From Golubevia sp. BC0850 (taxonomy: Eukaryota > Basidiomycota > Exobasidiomycetes > Golubeviales > Golubeviaceae), in contig JAAVVG010000020.1 in the NCBI GenBank assembly GCA_012976225.1, forward strand, positions 1 to 64,000: a DNA stretch of 64,000 bases, written 5' to 3'. The notes beneath the pieces are model-generated. The model made no database searches, was not told the origin of the DNA, and worked only from the letters and a program-made list of their open reading frames with translations. Position 1 is the stretch's first letter. Each line of letters opens with the position of its first letter. Positions 39,385-54,107 of this stretch are shown here, piece by piece. The position numbers and the translations under genes were made by a program.

Positions 39385-41407
39385 ATGGCTCTCAAAACCA
39401 AAGCTTCTCATCCTCCGACGCGGAGATCCTCAATCCTAAGTTTAAGAAAATCGTTCATCTCATTGATCCTGCTTACTTTAAGTGGTCTGATCTTTGTGAG
39501 TTGAAGCTCAATCGAATCTACCTTTCAAAGTTGCAACTACTGAAATCTCACTAACTCCCCTTCTGTCATGAGCAGGCCCTGATCTTGCCTCTAGCATTGC
39601 CTTCTCTATTCGTAACGGCAGACCAGATACAGCAAGTTCAGAAATTCTTTGATGGAAATTCAGATGGAAGTTTGAATGGTGGGTTCTATGGAGAAGAAGG
39701 AGATGGTCATACTAATAATTGGGCAGTGTTGGTTTGTGCTTCTAAGTTTTGGTTTAATTATAGAGTGAGTTCTGGTTTTGGTTTGAGAGGTCTAAGAGAG
39801 GGAGAGGGGGGGGGAAAGGGGAAGGAGTAGAAAGTGCTGATTCTGATGAGTGGAAAGGAGAGCTCGGAGAGGTTACATCGGAAGTCGAAGAGCTGAGGTG
39901 ATTGAAGTAAAGTAAGAGGTTAAAAGCAGAAAGAGGCAAACAATCATTATCTGAAGGACATACGAGCTATAGAGATCAAGTGAAACCTAGAATCTATGCC
40001 TCTGTTTTCCTCCTCTCCCTCTGATCTTCTCGACTAACACCTCTCTCCCTTCTTCCCCCTTTCTTCCTATTTTCCTATCCGAATTCACTTTCTTATCCTT
40101 CTTACTTCTCCTCTCCAGCACATGGCCAACACCTTAGGAATGTATCGAACAGTCAAAAGATTAGGAATTCCAGATTCAAACATCATCTTAATGTTAGCTG
40201 ACGACGCAGCTTGTAATCCTAGGAATAAATTTCCTGGAAACGTTTGGTCAAATCCTGGGAAACGTTTGGATCTCTATGGTGATAGCGTGGAAGTGGATTA
40301 TAGAGGTTACGAAGTTAGTGTTGAGAATGTGATTCGAGTTTTGACTGGTTAGTATCCTGTGGGCTTGCTTTGAGGAGATTGAGACCTCAGTTTCTACTAA
40401 ATTCTTGTTCTTATGTTGCTTTTTGGAGGAAGAATGCTCAACTTATAAGTTCCTCTCTTCTCGCTTTTCTACCTCAATCTCTACCCTTCTCTGACTTCTC
40501 ATTCCCACGCACTTCTCAAACCTTATTTTGTCAAATTCTTGGACTGCTAGGACGACTACCACCCCACACACCGAAATCAAAACGTCTAGAATCAGATTCA
40601 AGATCTAACGTCTTCCTCTACATGACGGGTCATGGAGGCGATGAATTCTTGAAATTTCAAGATTATGAGGAGATCAGCGCTTTCGATCTAGGTGAGAAAA
40701 GTCGGCAGTAGAGCTTCGTGCCCCATGCGAAGAGCTTGAAAGAGGGGGTCAAAGAAAACAGAACCCACCTCCAGACGAGAAGGAGCCTATAATGAAAGCT
40801 GACACGAACACTCAACCACTTCCTCTTTGCCCTTCGGAAACTCTCGAAAGCCGACGCGATTGAACAGATGTGGGAAAAGAAAAGGTGAGCTCTTTAACGA
40901 ATGAATTGGGGGGACAGGCCATAAATCCATCGCGACTGACGCAGCTTCCTTATCTCCTCGATCAGATACCATGAACTTTTCTTCATGATCGATACCTGCC
41001 AAGCCAACACTATGTTCTCTAAGATCTACAGCCCGAATGTCTTTGCAGCAGGAAGTAGTCAACAAGGACAGAACAGTTATTCTGTAAGTTCTTCGCTGGT
41101 TTCCTTCACCCTCGCTCCCCCTTCTTTCCTCGCTATCTCACACAAGTCTCTTTTCTTTTTTTCACAGCATCATGCCGATTCAGAGCTAGGAATCGCTATG
41201 ATCGACAGATACACCCATCACATTCTAGGATTTATGGAAGATGTAAACAAGACAAGTGAGAAGACTATGAAGGACTTATTCGACTCTATGGATCCCAATG
41301 TCATTCACTCAGATCCTGGAACTAGAACTGATTTATTCAAACGAGATTTAGGAGAGGTTCGATTGACGGATTTCTTTGGAGGTAGGAGTAGAGTGGAATT
41401 GAGTTGA
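39385..41407 (+). CDS. GPI8: GPI transamidase catalytic subunit Gpi8/PIG-K
   Basis: Cysteine protease subunit of the ER GPI transamidase that attaches GPI anchors. Start at 39385 ([20 protein letters not shown]), followed by a hydrophobic signal anchor made by two exons ([14 protein letters not shown] plus [12 protein letters not shown]). The C13-type domain has [76 protein letters not shown] with the catalytic His, and [20 protein letters not shown] with the catalytic Cys. Then GVAMIDRYT-like sequence ([16 protein letters not shown]) and a terminal [11 protein letters not shown]. Seven or so exons. No C-terminal transmembrane helix is visible before the stop at 41405-41407, unlike yeast Gpi8. 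Confidence 0.92.
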
Positions 41408-41681: not shown

Positions 41682-43154
41682 TCAAGCGAAATTCCTGTTC
41701 CATTCCGCTGCCAGCTTCTCCGCAACTTCTTTCTCTTGAAGCATTTGAGCCAAAGAGTTCAGTGGATACTCCGAATCCTCTCCTCTCCAGCTTCCCGACC
41801 GAGCTCTTGAATGTCCGCTGCTTCCAGAGTGTGCTTTCGAATCGACAGAGCTTCGACTTGAGGATGCAGAGCTAGAAGTCCGTTCATGTATTGATACGGA
41901 ATGTAGGTAGAAGGATAGAGCACTGAGACGCATGCTAGCTTCGGTAGAATCGTTCTGATGAATTTGTTGAAGGTGGAAGGATCCTGGACTTCGTCGTCAT
42001 ACGTTCCGCACCAGCGGACAGTTTCCAATCTTTCTGCCTTCACGAGAGCTTCAGACAGCAGAGCTACTTGCGGGTCGAGGATCCTGTCGTCTAAGTTTTC
42101 AGGACAGCCGAAATTGGACCACGAGGAACCGAGGTCAAAGACTCCGAGATGCGAGACCTGTTGCGTCAATTTCCAAAGCGGGGCTGACAGGAAAAGGAAA
42201 GGATGGTCAAACACACCGCAAGGTCAAACGTGAACAAGATGATTTAATACTCACTAACAGTACTCACTAACAGTACTCACTAACAGTACTCACTAACAGT
42301 ACTCACTAGCAGAGAGTCTACTTTCTGCCGGCTGTGGGTTCAGAAAATAGCCTTCTTCACAGGCGGCTACGCAGATGGAGAGTGAAGTCAGGGTTCCTAA
42401 CCTTTCGACGTGCTCTATCACCTCTGTGAAAAGAGGGACTGCTTCTGTCTCCCAGCGAATCACTTTGACCTTTTTCAACGATAGACAGATATCTAAAAGA
42501 GCCTTCTTGAAATCTTTTGGACTTGAGATGTTCTTGTCGAATCCAATGCCATCAGGCCCAGAGTCCCGACACGATCTCTCATCATGTATCTTGCATAATC
42601 ATTGTCCGGATCCTCTCTCTCTAGCTTTTCCAGCTCCTCCTTCATGTCTCTCTCCTTGAACATTCGTCCCATGGCCTGAGAGGGCGTCAGAGCGTATGGC
42701 CAAAGTCGAGGCGCATATTTGACAAGCAGAGTGTGAGTGTGCGATCCGAGAGATGGATTGAGCTGGATTGCTTTCCAGAGCCTTCCGACAGTTCCGCAGC
42801 TACCTAGGAAGACTGTTTCCATCATCTTGGGTAGACATAGAGAGCGGAAGAGACTTGAGGTTTGAGAGAGCGAGCAGAGGGCTCTCCACTGCTCAACGAT
42901 CGAAGGGTCGCTGTACCGTGAATATCCTACCCACCAGAACATCGTCTGATAATCTCCTTGGCTCTCTGTCCCGGTCCAGATAAAGTTGAGCACCTCACTG
43001 AATGAGAGAAGGGACATATAAGGAGGGAGGAGATGGAACCTTACAAGCCCCTGTCCTCCGCGCGGTCGCACCTTTGAAAACTCACCTCAGAATCCTTCCG
43101 ACAATGTCTTTCCATCCTTCATCTTCAGAGACTTTTCTGGCATAGTTGATGAAT
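41682..43154 (-). CDS. F-box-like/leucine-rich protein, left copy (3' half in inverted repeat)
   Basis: Exon 43154-43086 encodes FINYARKVSEDEGWKDIVGR and joins in phase to the exon starting at 42997, SEVLNFIWTGTESQGDY. This contains an F-box-like core, CSLSQTSSLFRSLCLPKMME, followed by NPSLGSHTHTLLVKYAPRLW. From 42677 leftwards the sequence is shared with the right arm: AMGRMFKERDMKEELEKLE, then in another frame FKKALLDICLSLKKVKVIRW, HVERLGTLTSLSICVAACEE, an intron (42306-42184) and PLWKLTQQVSHLGVF. The phase is consistent across that intron (codon ACC). The first exon was not found. The frame change inside the arm is not explained by a canonical intron, so this may be a damaged gene. A second frame near the end runs to the stop at 41682-41684. 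Confidence 0.6.
41684..42677 (+). repeat. Left arm of a 994-bp inverted repeat
   Basis: Reverse complement of 46782-47775 with no indels; paired positions always sum to 89459. The only mismatch I found is 41691 versus 47768, near one edge. Introns, silent sites and the 13-bp tandem array are all identical. The outer edge falls in the first base of a stop codon; the inner edge falls at an AGGCC shared by both genes. There is no target-site duplication next to the arms. Confidence 0.95.
42249..42306 (-). repeat. 13-bp tandem array of five 5' splice sites (left copy)
   Basis: Read on the minus strand, four units of GTGAGTACTGTTA follow each other and end in a fifth GTGAGT. It forms the 5' end of the intron 42306-42184. 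Only the donor at 42306 keeps the downstream frame open; the first unit carries an in-frame TAG if a later donor is used. Confidence 0.9.
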
Positions 43155-43593
43155 CTGAATAATGAAAGGCGTAGAGAGAGAAGGAAGAAAGAGAAAGAAA
43201 AGCTTTCGACACTCAGTAGAAATCAATCTGACGCCACAGCAGACGCCCACTGCAGCAAGCAACGTAGGGAACAAATCATAAGACACATCTTCTGATGCTT
43301 GTTACTTGTACCCTGGGCAACTCAAACCCAGAGGTTACAGCATTCAATGAATCAAGCCTCTTCTCCAGCAACGGGTAAGAAAGCGAGGTCGAGGGCTCTC
43401 AGGAAGAAGTCTGTTCGCGGCCAATTCGATCTGTCCACAGGAGTCCTGACCTCACGCGAGGTGAGTCGAAGTCTCTCGAGTTTGGTCTTGGACACAATTG
43501 ATTGAGGTATTACAAAATGTATAAAGTCCACAGAAAAGTTCTAGATTACAGAATGAAGAAGCGATGAAACGGGAGCGAAAACCACATGAGAGC
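43155..43593. other. Region between the left F-box-like gene and FMP32-like gene, with an orphan + exon-like frame
   Basis: Should contain the unseen 5' end of the F-box-like gene. On + a frame begins at ATG 43347 (MNQASSPATGKKARSRALRK), runs through GQFDLSTGVLTSRE to a GTGAGT at 43461 and stops at 43505. It looks like a genuine first exon, but no downstream + exon exists before the FMP32-like gene. On the minus strand LLWRQIDFY-like coding sequence occurs near 43230-43250 without a clear donor. Confidence 0.4.
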
Positions 43594-46087
43594 TCAAACA
43601 GCCCTAGTCCCGTCATTGTACAAGGGAACTAAACCTAGCTCTTCAGCAGTTTTCGGTCCACATTCTTCTTCTTTAGATTCAGAATCCCTTTCAGCTTCGT
43701 TGGAAGAAGAGCCTGATTTCTTGTCCTTGGTTAAATAATCCGCTAGAGACAAGGTGGCAATAATGATTGCTGTACAACCAAAAACCAAAGCTAAAGCTCT
43801 TCGTGTTGCGTCCCATTTGATATTTTGCTCGATTTCGGTTCTACAAAGGATAGAAGGGAGGGACGGAGAAGAGATGCGAGAGAGTGTCAGAATGAGTGTC
43901 AGAATGAGTGAAGGTAGACAAGTTGCATCCTTATTTGAGGGGCTCATCCTGTGTCATCCTATAAAGTCTTTCCCAGTTAAAGAAAGATTTTGATATTTCA
44001 AATATCTCCTAATTTGACTCACTTCAAATCAGACAAAGAAATAGTGAATCGATTGTTCAAGTCTTGAATCTCTTGATCCACGTTGTTGGCTTCTTCTTTT
44101 GACTCTGCTTTTCGATTGTTCATATCCACTTGAATGCTGAGAGAGATAAAGTAAGAGGTCAGATGTGTCAACAGCCCGATTCGTCGACTGCTGATCTACT
44201 CGTCAAAGAGGTTTCGAAAGAAATACTCACTCATGTTTCAATCCCGCGATGTCCTCGCTCATTCTCTGACTGACCGCATCGACTTCTCTCTGTAATAAAG
44301 TAGTTGCTCGTTTGAGAAGTGCGGCATCACTTCTACCTCTAATAGATAGCTCTGTTCGAAGTTCTGAGAGTGCTGCTGAGAAGAGGTAGGCTTCCTTTGG
44401 TGGGAGGAGAAAGAGGGTGATGAGACAGAGAAAGAGAGAGAGACAGAGTTGAACGGAGAGAGCCTTTTGTAAATAAGGAGTCAAAGTTGAAGCCTGATTG
44501 GACAACAGATCTAGAAATACGAGAGAAGATCCCATCTTGATTGACGACCTTCCTGTCTTTGAGAAATTTCTGGATTTTGATGAGAACCATCCTACTTTCT
44601 GCTGTTTCCTTGACTATCCTCTTTAGCTGAAAAGGTTCGAGCGATTTCAAGCTCGCATATTCCCGTATCTTCCCAAGATTCTCAAAAGTTCTCCCAGTTC
44701 GCTGTATCCTCTCCCCTTTTCACTTAGTACTCACATTTTCCAAATCCCCTTTATTCAAACATCTCTCCACCACTCCTTCGCCTCTACTGATAAGTAAATA
44801 TCTAACAGCTTCCATGACTCCTTCAGCAGGATCATGTCTATGAGAAAGCATGATTTGAGCTTGTCTTGAATCTTCACCTCCAGTCTCTTCTACTGTATCT
44901 TTCCCTTTCCCCTTTCCCTTGAAGTTTCCTTCCTCTGAGTTCCCAGAGCCAGAGCCAGAGTTAGAGGCAGAAATAGTAGAAGATGAGGGATTAGAATTGG
45001 AATTAGGATTCCAACTCCCATCAACATCATAACCATTCTCCTTTGAAATCCAACCATTAACCCAACCTCCATGTTGAAGTCTTTGAACGAAATCTCTAGT
45101 ATTGAAAGGATGATCTAAGATTGGAGGCCTTGAAATCGGGATGTCAGGTCTCGAAGTTAAGATTGGTAAATCAGATGCTGAAGGTTGATTTGAATTAGAA
45201 GATGAGGATGAGGTTGAAGTAGAATTCGAATTAAGAGTTTGAGAATCGGGCATTGAATTAGGACCAGAGAAAGAATCTTTGAATCCACCAGAAGAGGAGG
45301 AATTAGAATTGGGAGAAGCATTGGCTGAAGCATTCAACTCTTCACCTAAAGTGATGGTTTGATTCCCTCCATTTAATGAATTAGATTTGGTTTCTATTAC
45401 ACTTTTTATCTTTTGAGTTGATCTTGAGGATATTTGGTCTTGATTGTTACTTCTTAATGGTATCTTATCTTTCTGGTTTTCAGTTTGAGATCTCTCCAAA
45501 TCTCGATTCTGAGATTGAGCCATGAAGAACCTTTTCTTCAAAAGTTCATCATCGTTTAATTTTTGAGCCTTTGAGGAGGATTGATCTGAGGTTGAGGATG
45601 AAGGAGTTTGAGTTGAATTCGAGGTTGTTCCAGTTAAGGAGGTTACTCCAGAAGAACTGGAAGGAATTGATGAGTTCTTGATTGAATTCTTTATAGCATT
45701 TGCTACAATTTCAGCTTCTGCTGCTAATCTTTCCTTCTCTTTCTCTTTCTCTTGTTCTTTCTGTTTGTCTATCTGAACCTGATTGTCAATCTGTTCATCT
45801 ACCTTTGACTTTCCTTTCCCTTTGAATTTGTCCATCTTGATCTCCTTCCCAGCATCAAAGAAAGTTCTACTAGAACTGAAACTCCTGATTCTAGTCCTTG
45901 TATTGAGATTGAGAGATGTTCTGCTTGACTTTGTTCTGCTGTGAATCGCTGTTGGAATCCGAATCTTGCTACTACTACTGCTGCTGCTTCTGTTACTCCT
46001 CGCCGGTCCAGATTGGATGAGTGAATATGAAGTCGTTGAAGTTGTTGAAAACCGTTTGGGTGTACTTCGTGAGATTGTAAACATCAT
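43594..46087 (-). CDS. Mitochondrial FMP32/MCUR1-type (DUF1640) coiled-coil membrane protein
   Basis: Family members are inner-membrane proteins; yeast Fmp32 and animal MCUR1/CCDC90B are linked to respiratory-chain assembly, proline metabolism or calcium uniporter regulation. The first exon starts MMFTISRSTPKRFSTTSTTS, Arg/Ser-rich without acids, a mitochondrial presequence. About 270 low-complexity residues (Ser/Asn/Lys/Gln-rich) follow before the domain begins: HPFNTRDFVQRLQHGGW, DPAEGVMEAVRYLLISRGEG. Later exons give AYLFSAALSELRTELSIRG, TTLLQREVDAVSQRMSEDIA and the coiled coil with VDMNNRKAESKEEANNVDQE and NNRFTISLSDLK. The last exon has IKWDATRRALALVFGCTAII, the C-terminal membrane segment, then an acidic tail. 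Five or six exons. The whole gene lies in the spacer between the inverted-repeat arms. Confidence 0.8.
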
Positions 46088-46302
46088 CGAATCATCAGAA
46101 GGAGAAGATTAAGCGTTGCCAAAGTCAAGATCTCGCTAGACGTTTCTTTGACGTCCACGCTTTGCCACGTGCCAACAAATCCCCTTAAGCTTGCAGGAAA
46201 TTTTGGTCTTCTCAACTTCTTTGAAGGTCGATTCCAACTGAAGTTCTGAAATCCAAATCACATCAAGGCACTTGGTCGTTGTCTCCCCTTCTCAAACTCA
46301 AG

Positions 46303-47777
46303 ATGGATGAGCAAGGAGCTCGGAAGTGGTTTGGTACGAATCTTCCGAACGGAACTCTGTCAAACCCAACTCTCGAAGATCTCGACAATAATAAGAGATC
46401 AAGGTACGTTGCAGCTACAAAGTCATTCTTTAATCCAATACTACTCTACTAAACTATCTTCGGCCACCTTTTCCTTTCGATAACTGACACCTTGACGTTG
46501 CACTCGGCTGTCATCTCTCATTCTTTCCAGAACCGATCAGGAACTACCACTTCCAAACAGAGGCGTGGAGAGTCAATACCTTTCCCAAATCGCTTTCCTC
46601 GAGGCAAGAGTTGCTTCCCTGGAAAAGGAGGACTCTGCGATGAAGAATCAGGGCCTTTCTCCTCCAGACACGACCACCTCTTCTGCCAGCTCTACGAATA
46701 CTTCAAAGCGAAAAATCACAGCCGCTGGTGACCTGATTGAACCTTCCGTTTCAGTCGAAAACAAAATGAGCATCGACAATGAGGCCATGGGACGAATGTT
46801 CAAGGAGAGAGACATGAAGGAGGAGCTGGAAAAGCTAGAGAGAGAGGATCCGGACAATGATTATGCAAGATACATGATGAGAGATCGTGTCGGGACTCTG
46901 GGCCTGATGGCATTGGATTCGACAAGAACATCTCAAGTCCAAAAGATTTCAAGAAGGCTCTTTTAGATATCTGTCTATCGTTGAAAAAGGTCAAAGTGAT
47001 TCGCTGGGAGACAGAAGCAGTCCCTCTTTTCACAGAGGTGATAGAGCACGTCGAAAGGTTAGGAACCCTGACTTCACTCTCCATCTGCGTAGCCGCCTGT
47101 GAAGAAGGCTATTTTCTGAACCCACAGCCGGCAGAAAGTAGACTCTCTGCTAGTGAGTACTGTTAGTGAGTACTGTTAGTGAGTACTGTTAGTGAGTACT
47201 GTTAGTGAGTATTAAATCATCTTGTTCACGTTTGACCTTGCGGTGTGTTTGACCATCCTTTCCTTTTCCTGTCAGCCCCGCTTTGGAAATTGACGCAACA
47301 GGTCTCGCATCTCGGAGTCTTTGACCTCGGTTCCTCGTGGTCCAATTTCGGCTGTCCTGAAAACTTAGACGACAGGATCCTCGACCCGCAAGTAGCTCTG
47401 CTGTCTGAAGCTCTCGTGAAGGCAGAAAGATTGGAAACTGTCCGCTGGTGCGGAACGTATGACGACGAAGTCCAGGATCCTTCCACCTTCAACAAATTCA
47501 TCAGAACGATTCTACCGAAGCTAGCATGCGTCTCAGTGCTCTATCCTTCTACCTACATTCCGTATCAATACATGAACGGACTTCTAGCTCTGCATCCTCA
47601 AGTCGAAGCTCTGTCGATTCGAAAGCACACTCTGGAAGCAGCGGACATTCAAGAGCTCGGTCGGGAAGCTGGAGAGGAGAGGATTCGGAGTATCCACTGA
47701 ACTCTTTGGCTCAAATGCTTCAAGAGAAAGAAGTTGCGGAGAAGCTGGCAGCGGAATGGAACAGGAAATTCGCTTAA
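46303..47777 (+). CDS. Chimeric coiled-coil/F-box-tail gene, right copy
   Basis: Exon 1 (46303-46403) encodes MDEQGARKWFGTNLPNGTLS. Exon 2 starts at 46531, giving RTDQELPLPNRGVE, a short coiled coil SQIAFLEARVASLEKED, a Ser/Thr-rich linker and ENKMSIDNE. At 46782 it enters the right arm of the inverted repeat and continues in frame as AMGRMFKERDMKEELEKLE to a stop at 46964-46966. The remaining arm encodes the leucine-rich tail in another frame (FKKALLDICLSLKK; then after the intron 47153-47275, PLWKLTQQVSHLGVF to a stop at 47698-47700). A third frame ends at 47775-47777. The gene may therefore make a short protein of about 180 residues, or be a damaged fusion. The 5' half has no counterpart in the left copy. 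Function unknown. Confidence 0.55.
46782..47775 (-). repeat. Right arm of the 994-bp inverted repeat
   Basis: Reverse complement of 41684-42677; see the left arm for identity. The inner edge is at 46782, inside exon 2 of the chimeric gene (Glu-Ala-Met-Gly codons). The outer edge is in the stop codon of one frame (TAA here, TGA on the left). The spacer between the arms is 4104 bp (42678-46781). Confidence 0.95.
47153..47217 (+). repeat. 13-bp tandem array of five 5' splice sites (right copy)
   Basis: GTGAGT occurs at 47153, 47166, 47179, 47192 and 47205, each 13 bp apart, as four GTGAGTACTGTTA units plus a final GTGAGT. The acceptor is the CAG ending at 47275. Splicing from 47153 joins A to CC and yields a Thr codon followed by PLWKLTQQ. 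Any later donor retains Ser-Glu-Tyr-Cys-stop. Confidence 0.9.
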
Positions 47778-48370: not shown

Positions 48371-51300
48371 TCAAGTTGAAGCCGACGTTGAAGTAGAAGG
48401 AAGTGGTTGAGTGGGCGGCCTAGGACTGTTCGAGTCTCTGACTCCTCCGTTCACTCGTTCTTGAACAGCTTGACGATGCTTTCGATTCTTCAAATGGAGC
48501 GAGAAGTTGTCTAAAGTCTCTTCGGGTCCAGGAGTGTAGAGCTGAGAAGCAGAGAGCAGGGAGAAAAAGATGAAAAGGTCAGAAACAAAGAGTGGGGCTC
48601 GAAGGGAAAGAGAAGAGGGGAACTCACCTTTCCAGGACAATCGAGGCACTTGATTCGCCATTCCGGGATCGGAGGAGCTACAGTTCCAGCAGGATACTTT
48701 CTTAGCGCTAGATCGAAATTGTCATTGGGATAGTTGGAGCGTAGCGTTGCCATGGCATCGGCAAGCCACTGAGGAGCAGCGGTAGGTGGCGGCGGAGAAG
48801 CAGCGTTTGGAGGTGGGGCTGAACCGCTCGCTGACGTGGGTCGACCGTTCAGAAGGGCTGCAGGAGGCTTGGGACTCAGAGAAGAAGTAGAACCTTGAGA
48901 CTGAAGCTGTTGCTGAGGAGGTTGAGGCGGAACTTGGGGCTGGATCTTCGATGATAGTTGCGGCGGCTGAGAGACAGGGACTGGTGTCTTGACCTTCTTT
49001 TTCTTGACCGGAGAAGCGCTCCTAGTAGAGACCGGACTGTTTGATCTAGAAGACGACGAGTCCTCAGGAGAACCAACTTGTAAGAAAGGTAGATCTGGAG
49101 AGACACCTCTCTTGACAGGGGAAGGGGAGTTAGGCTGGTTACTCGAGGGCTGCTGTCCGTTCTGATCGTTGTTTTGAGAAGCAGGGGTACGATTGAGTTC
49201 CTGGACTGGCGGCGTCTGGACAGTATTCTCCGAGTTCTTCTTGTGGAAAGCGAGGTCTCTAGAGTAGGTGGTTTCTCTGACTCGACGGAACCTTGAATAG
49301 AACTTTCCGCAGACCGTACACATGGTGTCCTTACCAAGAGGACCTTTCCTTCGAGAGGGAACCAAAGAAGCAGGAATACCACAGTTGGAGCAATGCCAGA
49401 TTCCGTCGTGCATGTTAGGATGCTGCAGCTCGAGATCTCTCGTAGCTCTGTCGACCTTGGAAAGACCCATGCCTGTTTGCGTATTAGGCGTAGGTGTCAC
49501 TCCTGTTCCAGTTCCAGTAGCCTTGGGTGGTCTTTCTGCGAAGATTGCCGGAGAAGCAAGAGGAGTGGGATCCAATTTCTCGACTTTCCCTTGAGAGGAT
49601 TCGGGATCGATCAAGAACTTGGGTCCAGCGTCCTCTTCTTTCGTTCCTAGACCACCTGGATAGACGAAAGCAGCGGAGTAGTTCTGATAACGAGGCTTCT
49701 TGGGAGCTTTGGTTGAAGGAGCCGGCGTGTTGTTACCACCAGTAGCAGGACCAGAGGGAGGACCTCCGTTGTAGCCGTCGAAGCCTGGAGAGCTGCGATC
49801 GACGCTGGCCGCGATCTTGTCTTGAGCTGAGATTGCGGCTCGTCGAGGAGCTCTAATGATTTCCGTTCCATTCGAAGGACCAAGATCCAAAGTTCCGTTC
49901 TGAAGACCCCAGACAGCTGGAGTTCGTTGAGACTTGAGAGGTTCTCTGTCTGGAAGATTGAGGGGCCTCCTTCCTCTGGTCTGACGCTTCTTCCTGCGAA
50001 GCTCTCTCTCCCTCTCTTTGTCGAGCTTGTCAATCTCCAGCTCTGTAAGCTCTACTAGACGAGGAGTGAAGGCCTCTACCTCGCTCTTGGTTCTGGCTAG
50101 CCTGATTTCAGAGGAGAGAGTCGGTAGGAAGGAGGTTCTCAAGTCTTCGTCTTGAATTGCACTTCCATCGAAAGAGTATCCTGAGACCGAAAGACAGTTG
50201 AGATGGGTCAAAGTCTGTTCTCGGATCGAATGGGCGATAGCAGTTCGGAACTCTCCAGAAAGACCAAGATCGGATGAAAACGACTCCGCGAAATCCTCTG
50301 CACTGTTCCTGGCATCCGAGAGATCCCACTCAAATTGGTCGATCAAGTTCATAGCGCCAACGGTGATGTCAAGCTGTAAGAGAGAAAAAGAGATAAAAGC
50401 GAAACAGCTTGATCAATAACATAGCATCGATCGACCCACATCAACTCCAAACGACTGCCCTCCTAGACTACTGACCTTGATGATGATTCTGAGATCCTCA
50501 GCATTCAGCTTCTTTTGCATTCTATTAGCTCCGAGTAGGATGACGTCGTCGTCCTCTCCGACTTGACCTTCCTCTTTAATGTCGACTCTCGTTGGGTCCT
50601 CTCGAGGTTCTTCCTTGTAAGAGTCTTCAGTTCGCTTTCTCTTATTCGACCAAGCGATCTCAGTTTCGCTGACGAGACCTGCGGTACCATCATCTTCCAT
50701 CTCCAAGATCTGCTCTTTCTTCGCCATCTCCGCTCTCCAATTTCTCCACCATTTTTCATCTTCCTCGTCCAATCTACCTTCTCCGTTCCTGCCTTTCTTC
50801 TTCATTTCCTCGTCTAAGCCATGATGAGGCGGAATCTTTGCTCGATTGATCAGGTATTCGGAGACTTGAGTAGCGATAGCATCTTTGATTGGTCCGACGA
50901 AAAGTTGAGGTGGGAATCCTAGCTCATCACAGAGACTCTGAGCGAAGAGTTCAGGATTGATCGATGCCTCAGAGCTGGAAGTCGAAGGAGTTGACCAAGT
51001 GAAGCTATCTCTCAACCTCCAACCCTCGATGTCCAACTCTAATCGGATAGGGACGAGATCTTCCTCTCGTTCCGTCTCAGTCTCCTCGGCTCCTTGCCTG
51101 GCATGATTCATGACCACGTCGCCATTCGCAACAGCGGTCGCTTCGGCTGCTTCAGCTAAAATATTCTGACGTTCCTTCTCCTTTTCCCTTTCCGATTCTT
51201 TGACCTTCGCCTTCTCCTTTTCCATTGAGGTAGTGGAGGAGTGATGAAGTCTACCGAAATTGAGAGCAGCAACAGCTCTTGAAGCGATCGGGCCGTTTCC

Positions 51301-54107
51301 ATTCGCGATCGAGGCAGATATGTCTTGATTTACTATCCTTCGCTTGTCGGCTGGTAGAAGAAGTTTGAAAGGTTCGAAGACGTCATGGTTTGAAGCCGGA
51401 TCCGAGAACTCAGGTTTCTCCCACCAGTGAAGTTTAGCCTTCGAGTGAGCTAGATCTCTTCGTTCTTTGGTTATCTCTCGAGATTCCATCAACCTGCGAC
51501 CATCTCTGTTGTCAGTCAAAGTCTCTTCCCAAGATCGATCGATTGGCCAAAGCTCTCGAACTTTCTTGCTCATGAAGTTGTTCATCCTTTCTTGCTGATC
51601 GGAAGCCACTTTTTGATAGTTCTCGTCTTTCTCCATGATCCTAAGTAATTCCTTCTCCTGCTCCTTGGTCATCTCTTGCCAAGCTGCTTCATCTTTCTCG
51701 TTTCGATTACCCTTCGGAAGAGGTTTTCTCAAGGTGTTGAGAATATTCAATCGAAGGTGAGAAGCCGATTCGACTGGAAGTAGACCTCCTAGATGAGGCG
51801 GAAGAGGGTCTCCTTCTGTTGACTTGGGAGCTTCGGAAGCTAGAACCGCAGCAGCTTCATTGATCTGGGCAGCTTGATTGACTAAGGGAAGGTTCTTGGA
51901 GGTGACAGCGAGAGTCAATTTACCCCTGCTGCCTATCTGCAAAGGGCTTGGATTGGCTCCTACTTCTGGAGGGACTATTCCATCAGCGAAGAGAGAGATT
52001 CCAGAAGATTGAGCTGAGGTTCGAAGAATCTGCTTGCCTGCACTCATTCCCATGGCTGCCATCTTTTGAAGGTGTCGACTCTGAGCGGTGATCTGGCTCT
52101 CAGGTCTGGATCGCTGGGTAGAGCTACCTCCGTCTCGAATGCCAGGTAGAGGAAGACCAGCTGCAGCAGCTGCAGCAGCTGAAGTTGCGATCGCTGCGAT
52201 GAAACCAGGGTCGCTGTGGAGAGCGGTCTCTGGAGGAGCAGAGAGAGCAGACGTAGAAGCCATTGGAGATGCTTGGAGTGGAGCATGAGCTTGCGATTCG
52301 CTTGAAGAACCTGCCGCTGCCACCGCTGCCATCGCAGAGGAGTGAAGGCCAGTTGAGCCAGGCCCTAGCGATTTCCGATCCAGAAGCTGCTGCTGAGGCC
52401 CTTGACCCATGAGACCTGGAACCGGAGATTGAGGAGGAAGCATAGCACCAGTCTGAGGAGAGGAGAAGCCATGGGGCTGTGACTGAACGTAGGGAGGAAT
52501 CGAGGGATTAGGAGAACCCTGAGGAAGTTGATGTTGCTGCTGTTGCTGAAGTCTCTGTTGTTGAATAGAGGTTTGATATTGCTGAACCATTGAAGAGACT
52601 GTTTGGATCTGGTGCATCTGCTCTGCGTGCTGACCTTGAAAAGGTCCCAATCCTAGCATCCTTGCGTCTCCCAAGTGCATGATCGTTCCTCCTTGAGTTG
52701 GTTGGTCTGGCCTGAAGATTCCAGGCTTGATACCAGGAGGTAGACTCGAGACGGGAACGTAGACCAGCCCTCGACTCTGAAGAATGGAAGCTGGGCTCAC
52801 GCTCGTCTCTCCGCTCTGACTTGCAGATCTGGCTTGAGTGTGAGCGTTGGAAAGAGCGACTTGCTGGTCTTTGGCTGGCATCACTGAAGTCCAAAAGACT
52901 CCCGGACGGTTAGGTACTGGTATCAGTCCCACCGAGTGAGCAGCTTCAGTGGAACTCAGACCTTGACGAGCTGATTGGAGAGCTCGAATCTGAAGTACCG
53001 CTTGAGCTTTGGCGTTGTGAAGGTAGAGCTCGTGGATATCCGGAAGTCCCGGCATTGCTACAACACTTGTTCGACCTAAAGAAGGAAATTGGAGAGGGGA
53101 GAAGAAGAAACGGAAGTGAGTAAGACGGAAAAGTAGAGACGCTAAATACTCAATCCGAAGCAGCGTTTCTTTTCTCAAAACTCACCGGCAGACTGCGAGT
53201 GAGGAGCAGCTAGACCTCTTCCTGAAGATCCATTCTCTGGCATCTTTCCTTTGAAGTCCGGATCCTGTCCAGGCATGGAACCAGCGACTTGTGAAGGTCT
53301 CCGCTGATGAGCTTGCTGATTCGGTGGGTAAGGACCTTGAGAACCAGGTCGAGGTGATCCGTGTTGACTCATCATGGGAGACATTGAGTTTGGAGGTTGT
53401 TGAAATTGCTGCGAACTCATGAATTGTTGTTGAGAGTTGCTGCTACTTGAGGGTTGATGATGAGCATTCATTCCAACTTGTCCTCCGCTTCCTCCTCCCA
53501 TATTCCATCCCACATTGCTCTGATTCTGAGCTGGCATGCTTCCACCTTGCGACTGATTTGAAGGATTGAAACTCTTGCTTGGATTGATTCCTCCCATTCC
53601 ATTGCTTTGAGCTTGCTGATTTTGCATTCTGAGAAGAGCAGAGGGATCGATGTGCTGCTGGGACGTTTGCTGACCTTGCTGATTGGCGAAGGGATTCATC
53701 GTCTGAGCACTGTAGTTTCCAAAAGTAGAAGTAGAAGGAGATTGGGCTACTGATAGCTGAGATGGATTGAAGTAGGCTCCATTGGGAGCTTGGGAAGAAG
53801 AGGAGGACGGATCGTAACCACCACCACCATTGCTTCCTCCAGCTCCAGACTGCTGCTGCCATTGAACCATTCCTTGATTCTGTTGCTGTTGGAGATAGGG
53901 ACTCTGATTCTCATTGCTCTGGTACGAACCTTGCTGATGGTGCTGCTGAATCCCTCCTCCTCCTCCAGACATGGCACTTGGATTGATGAAACCCGAAGGC
54001 ATTCCACCAGGATTGTTTGCATACATGGAGTTGTTGTAGTATTGCTGGTTTCCATTTGGTTGATTGTTGGAAGAAGAAGAAGAAGAAGGTAGAGTGAGAC
54101 CGTTCAT
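48371..54107 (-). CDS. SNF5: SWI/SNF chromatin remodelling subunit Snf5 (SMARCB1-type) with GATA-like finger
   Basis: Core subunit of the SWI/SNF nucleosome remodeller. Exon 1 (54107 to about 53190) is a Gln/Asn/Ser/Gly-rich activation-type region starting MNGLTLPSSSSSSNNQPNGN. Exon 2 (to about 50477) begins with MPGLPDIHELYLHNAKAQAV-type sequence, has a Gln tract, and then the SNF5 region: LVPIRLELDIEGWRLRDSFT, INPELFAQSLCDELGFPPQL and DAIATQVSEYLINRAKIPPH. Exon 3 gives the second SNF5 repeat, LDITVGAMNLIDQFEWDLSD, GEFRTAIAHSIREQTLTHLN. A zinc finger follows, WHCSNCGIPASLVPSRRKG to MCTVCGKFYSRFRR (CX2CX20CX2C). After a Ser/Pro-rich linker come IKCLDCPGK and LYTPGPEETLDNFSLHLKNR. About 1,700 residues in four or so exons, longer than yeast Snf5 because of the C-terminal part. 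Confidence 0.92.

Follow-up and report, generated by a model that had tools for sequence, protein, structure and literature searches.

Several long inverted repeats that carry genes have already been described. In Saccharomyces, the flip/flop locus on chromosome XIV has arms of 4.2 kb that lie 24 kb apart (PMC9731477). In Hansenula (Ogataea) polymorpha, the mating-type (MAT) loci lie about 18 kb apart and are associated with identical inverted arms of 2049 bp, and inversion has been demonstrated; the two a1-like proteins reported there differ only in 24 N-terminal residues (PMC4238957). Long inverted repeats of paired genes are described in Caenorhabditis, with arms 95.7% and 100% alike in two C. 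elegans examples (PMC1803023). The locus described here is an inverted repeat with arms of about 1 kb around a 4.1-kb spacer. It lies in the basidiomycete fungus Golubevia sp. BC0850, within positions 1 to 64,000 of contig JAAVVG010000020.1 (assembly GCA_012976225.1); this whole stretch of 64,000 nucleotides is referred to as the window. The repeat probably arose very recently, when repair produced an ectopic copy in inverted orientation. A literature search found no paper on this locus, although no claim is made that it is unpublished.

The Inverted Repeat

The original prediction described the arms as reverse complements free of indels, with position pairs that add up to 89459 and a sole mismatch at 41691/47768. 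Comparing the window with itself by blastn bears this out. The two arms (Table 1) align over 994 columns with one mismatch and no gaps, and at an E-value of 1e-5 the window contains no second non-trivial match to itself. Since 986 complementary bases follow one another uninterrupted, a chance origin is impossible. The absence of differences in these 986 bp sets a 95% upper bound of 0.3% on the divergence. Under looser rules for finding repeats, the arms reach 41670 and 47789 (1008 nt, 99%). With its highly identical reverse-complementary arms on either side of a unique spacer, the structure belongs to the class of long inverted repeats, or segmental inverted duplications.

The 993 identical columns include a predicted intron, which starts with five tandem copies of a 13-bp unit (CTGTTAGTGAGTA; 47147-47211 and 42248-42312). 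Every unit holds a GTGAGT 5' splice donor, and the two arms hold equally many units. Introns were thus rightly said to be as identical as coding sites. A retroposed (reverse-transcribed) copy was considered and rejected, because the intron, with its consensus donor, is retained in both arms.

The GC content of the arms is 0.482, and the fraction of windows with an equally high value is 0.321. This lies inside the range of the stretch as a whole, so there is no sign of long GC-biased conversion.

The Edges of the Arms

If one mismatch were put at a random column, the chance of its lying 8 bp or less from one of the two ends would be 1.6%. The only mismatch was correctly located at the outer end by the original prediction, but it is better seen as a possible tract edge. 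Judging from its position, it may mark the border of the copied tract, rather than a mutation accumulated since. Beyond it, toward the outer edge, the arms share seven more bases, TTCGCTT. If the mismatch is a tract border, these bases may have been shared already before the copying, as microhomology or as old homology. A 7-bp match directly past the mismatch is the expected trace of a microhomology junction, and so supports copying during repair.

Mismatches make up 32 of the 43 columns that follow the inner edge and 14 of the 24 that follow the outer edge. Similarity between the flanks was compared with 200 block shuffles and with 400 random segments of the window, the latter in nine tests (three lengths from 250 to 700 bp, three scoring schemes). 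The random-segment null relied on here keeps one side fixed; a null drawing two random segments gave very large maxima, because the segments sometimes overlapped. The inner flanks show no similarity in these tests: their score was equalled by 175 of 200 shuffles at 400 bp and by 140-384 of the 400 random segments. Within the last 60 bp there is a 17-bp match whose score was reached in 3 of 200 shuffles, and it places the flanks out of register.

Transposon marks were not found at the arms. The best score for a terminal inverted repeat was equalled in 59 of 500 shuffles. No exact target-site duplication adjoins either arm. A Pfam scan of 18 proteins (17 open reading frames, or ORFs, and one spliced model, a subset of the ORFs in the window) gave no transposase domain. 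These results agree with what had been read from the sequence before, namely that no transposase, terminal motif or target-site duplication is present. The locus thus lacks the combination of terminal inverted repeats and target-site duplication that defines a DNA transposon or Pack-type element.

Gene Models Carried by the Arms

Followed from the spacer outward, either arm resembles the 3' part of a gene. The arms would thus belong to two divergent gene models with unlike 5' ends, and they are in frame with both, a point on which the original prediction is silent. The right model has a charged N-terminus, coiled-coil-like by eye, and an intron donor at 46404. It crosses 46782 in frame and ends at a TAG stop (46964-46966). 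The left model crosses the inner edge at 42677 in frame and continues in the arm frame that the right gene also uses. Neither arm-bearing gene is recognised by Pfam above cut-off. For the left gene, the one ORF scanned, which excludes its upstream exons, matches the F-box family PF12937 with an E-value of 0.098 and 12.9 bits, against a cut-off of 24.3.

Two further frames run through the arm. The main coding-like piece of the second has its left-arm mirror at 41759-42569. In the third, the two copies have their stops at equivalent codons (TGA at 41682-41684 on the left, TAA at 47775-47777 on the right). The codon is shared as a stop although the arm match covers just its first base.

Other searches added little. 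AlphaFold2, run from a single sequence of 142 residues that covers roughly the second exon of the arm, gave a mean pLDDT of 42.6, which is unusable. A search of PDB sequences with the right gene gave one match at chance level (E 1.8). Among viral contigs there were 28 pattern matches for the right-hand gene and one for the left-hand gene, with no confirmed relatives.

Codon usage was scored as the mean log-odds per codon. Training stretches average +0.155, with a standard deviation of 0.152 for 35 codons. Exon 2 of the right gene scores +0.157 outside the arm and +0.127 for its first 35 codons inside. The second arm frame scores -0.057 (46890-47145) and -0.036 (47264-47700, which includes the last 12 intron bases), and the exon of the left gene outside the arm scores -0.076. 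This gives a weak hint that the first approximately 107 bp of the arm may be right-gene-like and the remainder left-gene-like. If such a mosaic is true, sequence would have been transferred in both directions or in two steps. The hint is weakened by another frame of the first 35-codon arm stretch (+0.110, one stop) and by the supposed upstream exon of the left gene (24 codons, +0.076). Scores over 24-145 codons are noisy and Pfam names neither gene, so that either of the two may have been the donor.

Two side observations concern the left gene. Where the left arm meets the spacer (42676-42690, minus strand), a branch-point-like CTGAC is followed by CAG and resembles a 3' splice site. Opposite the 5' end of the gene, a short ATG frame on the plus strand (43346-43461) ends at a GTGAGT donor; it is not clearly coding, and has a low codon score and at most one stop in its own frame.

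Origin of the Repeat

Several observations count for recent copying, among them the near-complete identity of the arms, intron included, the inner flanks that do not match, and the absence of transposon ends. The process would start with a break, repaired by a template switch or by break-induced or synthesis-dependent copying. In this repair, some 986 bp from the 3' part of a gene would be written into an opposite-facing gene 4.1 kb away. The outcome would be two divergent genes with a common 3' part and different 5' parts. Thereafter, conversion could act between the arms, and crossovers between them could invert the spacer. The original prediction left a choice between recent duplication and continual gene conversion, as opposed to selection on the protein. 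This choice fits whatever could be tested, but its reading of the mismatch and its wording on instability need to be changed.

Several points weigh against a recent copy, and some of them hint that the homology was once longer. The outer flanks score 44, above the shuffle maximum of 41 (0/200), and the score was equalled by 2-23 of the 400 random segments over the nine tests; both results are marginal. This likeness is pyrimidine-rich and may be a hint of formerly longer homology. Just past the outer edge, 10 of 24 columns match, compared with about 6 expected. The first 60 bp of the outer flanks are unremarkable, with 33 of 200 shuffles as good. A stop at an equal place in both outer edges also fits an older, longer duplication. 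Finally, the age is judged from identity alone. The idea of an older and more extensive duplication, converted in its core, was set aside, since in the flank tests it is unsupported on the inner side and marginal on the outer side.

The main rival to recent copying is an old inverted duplication, held identical by continual conversion and with occasional inversion of the spacer, in the style of the Saccharomyces flip/flop locus. It would account for the equal and very high identity of coding and intron sites, and for the similarity and stop position at the outer edges; there are also precedents in Saccharomyces (PMC9731477) and Caenorhabditis (PMC1803023). Homology at the inner edge, however, is absent in the tests of 250-700 bp, and the GC content of the arms is not raised. 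This explanation is considered unlikely, though it deserves to be taken seriously. An error of assembly or polishing, which could have erased differences inside a real repeat or mis-joined the contig, is less likely again. The sole mismatch does lie 8 bp from unique sequence, where reads anchored outside could preserve it, and such a position is as improbable by chance as noted above. Against an artefact stand the four unlike flanks, the frames that stay open across both inner edges, and the recognisable neighbour genes on each side.

Two further explanations have very little to recommend them. A mobile element, or gene fragments captured by one (Pack-type or Helitron-like), would combine gene-like pieces and be present as near-identical copies, as is seen here. 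The arms have no terminal inverted repeat or adjacent target-site duplication and join local open frames in frame, and the 18 proteins scanned hold no transposase domain, which makes this origin scarcely credible. Helitrons require neither terminal inverted repeats nor target-site duplication, and are thus excluded less well. Likewise, the orientation of the spacer might set the expression of both divergent genes in a regulated inversion switch. Such a switch would recall the architecture of the Hansenula MAT locus, where identical inverted arms lie beside proteins that differ N-terminally (PMC4238957). However, a computed flip alters nothing before the mismatch column, and neither a mating-type regulator nor a recombinase is among the 18 proteins scanned, so that a switch seems most improbable. 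For the mating-type regulator, the count of zero Pfam matches applies to those 18 proteins; exons are short, and many ORFs lie outside the scan.

Possible Inversion of the Spacer

An inverted isomer of the locus was built in silico. From the spacer outward as far as the mismatch column, the left side after flipping is identical to the right side as it stands now, and vice versa. Of the 1394 positions compared in this way, 73 differ, the first of them at the mismatch column. Because the genes run outward, inversion keeps the reading frames of the arms, except for one codon. A crossover between the arms would swap only this codon (lysine or asparagine, the third before the third-frame stop) and the 3' flanks. 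The 4.1-kb spacer could thus flip nearly without any change of reading frame.

A bolder interpretation is that the locus is a small fungal inversion cassette. Its divergent genes would carry one identical 3' module and its arms would be kept alike by conversion, while the spacer flips, the proteins are kept and the 3' flanks are exchanged. This must be regarded as a long shot. Hairpin RNA formed from the arms was also considered and set aside. Each arm lies in sense orientation within its own outward frame, so double-stranded RNA would be expected only with read-through or antisense transcription.

The original prediction held that long inverted arms at this spacing are usually unstable. This is too strong. 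Fragility driven by hairpins is reported to drop with spacer length, with the greater risk at short or absent spacers (PMC7999016). At the Saccharomyces locus, no orientation changes were reported in approximately 53,800 mitoses and 950 meioses (PMC9731477). In yeast carrying 2-kb repeats with a 1-kb spacer, the repair of a nearby break was mis-routed, mostly via intermolecular annealing (PMC6103520).

The Spacer and Neighboring Genes

The features of the locus are collected in Table 1. The CCDC90-like assignment of the spacer gene comes from ORF 43594-43947, which matches PF07798 with an E-value of 0.00039; its 20.8 bits stay below the cut-off of 33.5. The CCDC90-like exons are preceded by a very long ORF (44720-46087, minus strand) that is rich in serine and has no Pfam match. 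In the left outer neighbor, 40370-40711 matches PF01650 at 22.1 bits, against a cut-off of 22.8, and ORF 40985-41407 has no Pfam match. The two ORFs of the right outer neighbor match PF04855 at 92.6 and 65.1 bits. Together with predicted introns that have GT...AG ends, these three genes mark the stretch as eukaryotic. Searches for RNA families (at gathering score) and for tRNAs gave no matches.

Table 1. Positions in the window of the repeat, the predicted genes and frames, and the flanking genes.
Feature	Position	Strand	Remarks
Left arm	41684-42677	- (gene sense)	Uninterrupted identity 41692-42677; self-comparison
Right arm	46782-47775	+ (gene sense)	Uninterrupted identity 46782-47767; self-comparison
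Spacer	42678-46781		4104 bp, GC 0.434
Only mismatch	41691 (pairs with 47768)		Eighth base in from the outer edge; may be a tract border
Right gene model	46303-46966	+	Exon 46303-46403, intron 46404-46530, exon 46531-46966; predicted from sequence
Left gene model	42493-43086	-	Frame stays open from upstream of the arm into it; F-box/LRR likeness by eye only
Right-arm intron	47153-47275	+	Predicted, consensus donor; mirrored at 42184-42306
Second arm frame, main coding-like piece	46890-47700	+	LRR-like by eye; two exons around intron 47153-47275
Third arm frame	47463-47777	+	Stop TAA 47775-47777, of which the arm includes just the T
CCDC90-like (mitochondrial coiled-coil) gene in spacer	43594-46087	-	Several exons; joining of ORFs is the authors' reading
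Left outer neighbor, caspase-like Peptidase_C13 (GPI8-like)	40370-41407	+	Stop 276 bp ahead of left arm
Right outer neighbor, SNF5/SMARCB1-like	48511-53181	-	Two ORFs; ends 735 bp past right arm

Comparison with Known Systems

The locus looks like the product of an apparently ordinary but very recent copying event. As a clean and apparently young case, it illustrates how inverted copying can fuse the 3' part of a gene with the 5' part of a different one, and it provides a natural setting in which conversion between arms and inversion could be measured at a spacing of 4 kb. General views are left as they were; related loci in yeasts and worms are already described (PMC9731477, PMC4238957, PMC1803023).

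Sharp edges, short junctional homology and mixed pieces would be expected from templated insertion and microhomology-mediated break-induced replication (PMC2621351, PMC8421209, PMC11724301). The templated inverted duplications reported in yeast are mostly about 5-34 bp long (PMC11724301), compared with arms of about 1 kb at this locus, where such a mechanism may have acted.

The Caenorhabditis repeats likewise consist of divergent or convergent gene pairs, with arms that are highly similar in non-coding sequence too. They are unlike the present locus in having short spacers (126 and 414 bp in the two C. elegans examples), paralogous genes within the arms, and a structure conserved across species (PMC1803023). 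The MAT locus of H. polymorpha resembles the present one in its identical inverted arms and in a pair of proteins that differ solely at the N-terminus, although it is a supposition that an arm holds the shared part. Its mating-type genes, its 2049-bp arms and its demonstrated inversion go beyond the present locus, which is known from sequence alone (PMC4238957).

If the arms are maintained by conversion, the clearest precedent would be the Saccharomyces locus on chromosome XIV. In both cases, near-identical inverted arms with gene content surround other genes, and both conversion and inversion are to be expected. The locus described here differs in having 1-kb arms that hold only parts of genes, a 4.1-kb spacer, and a record from one genome (PMC9731477).
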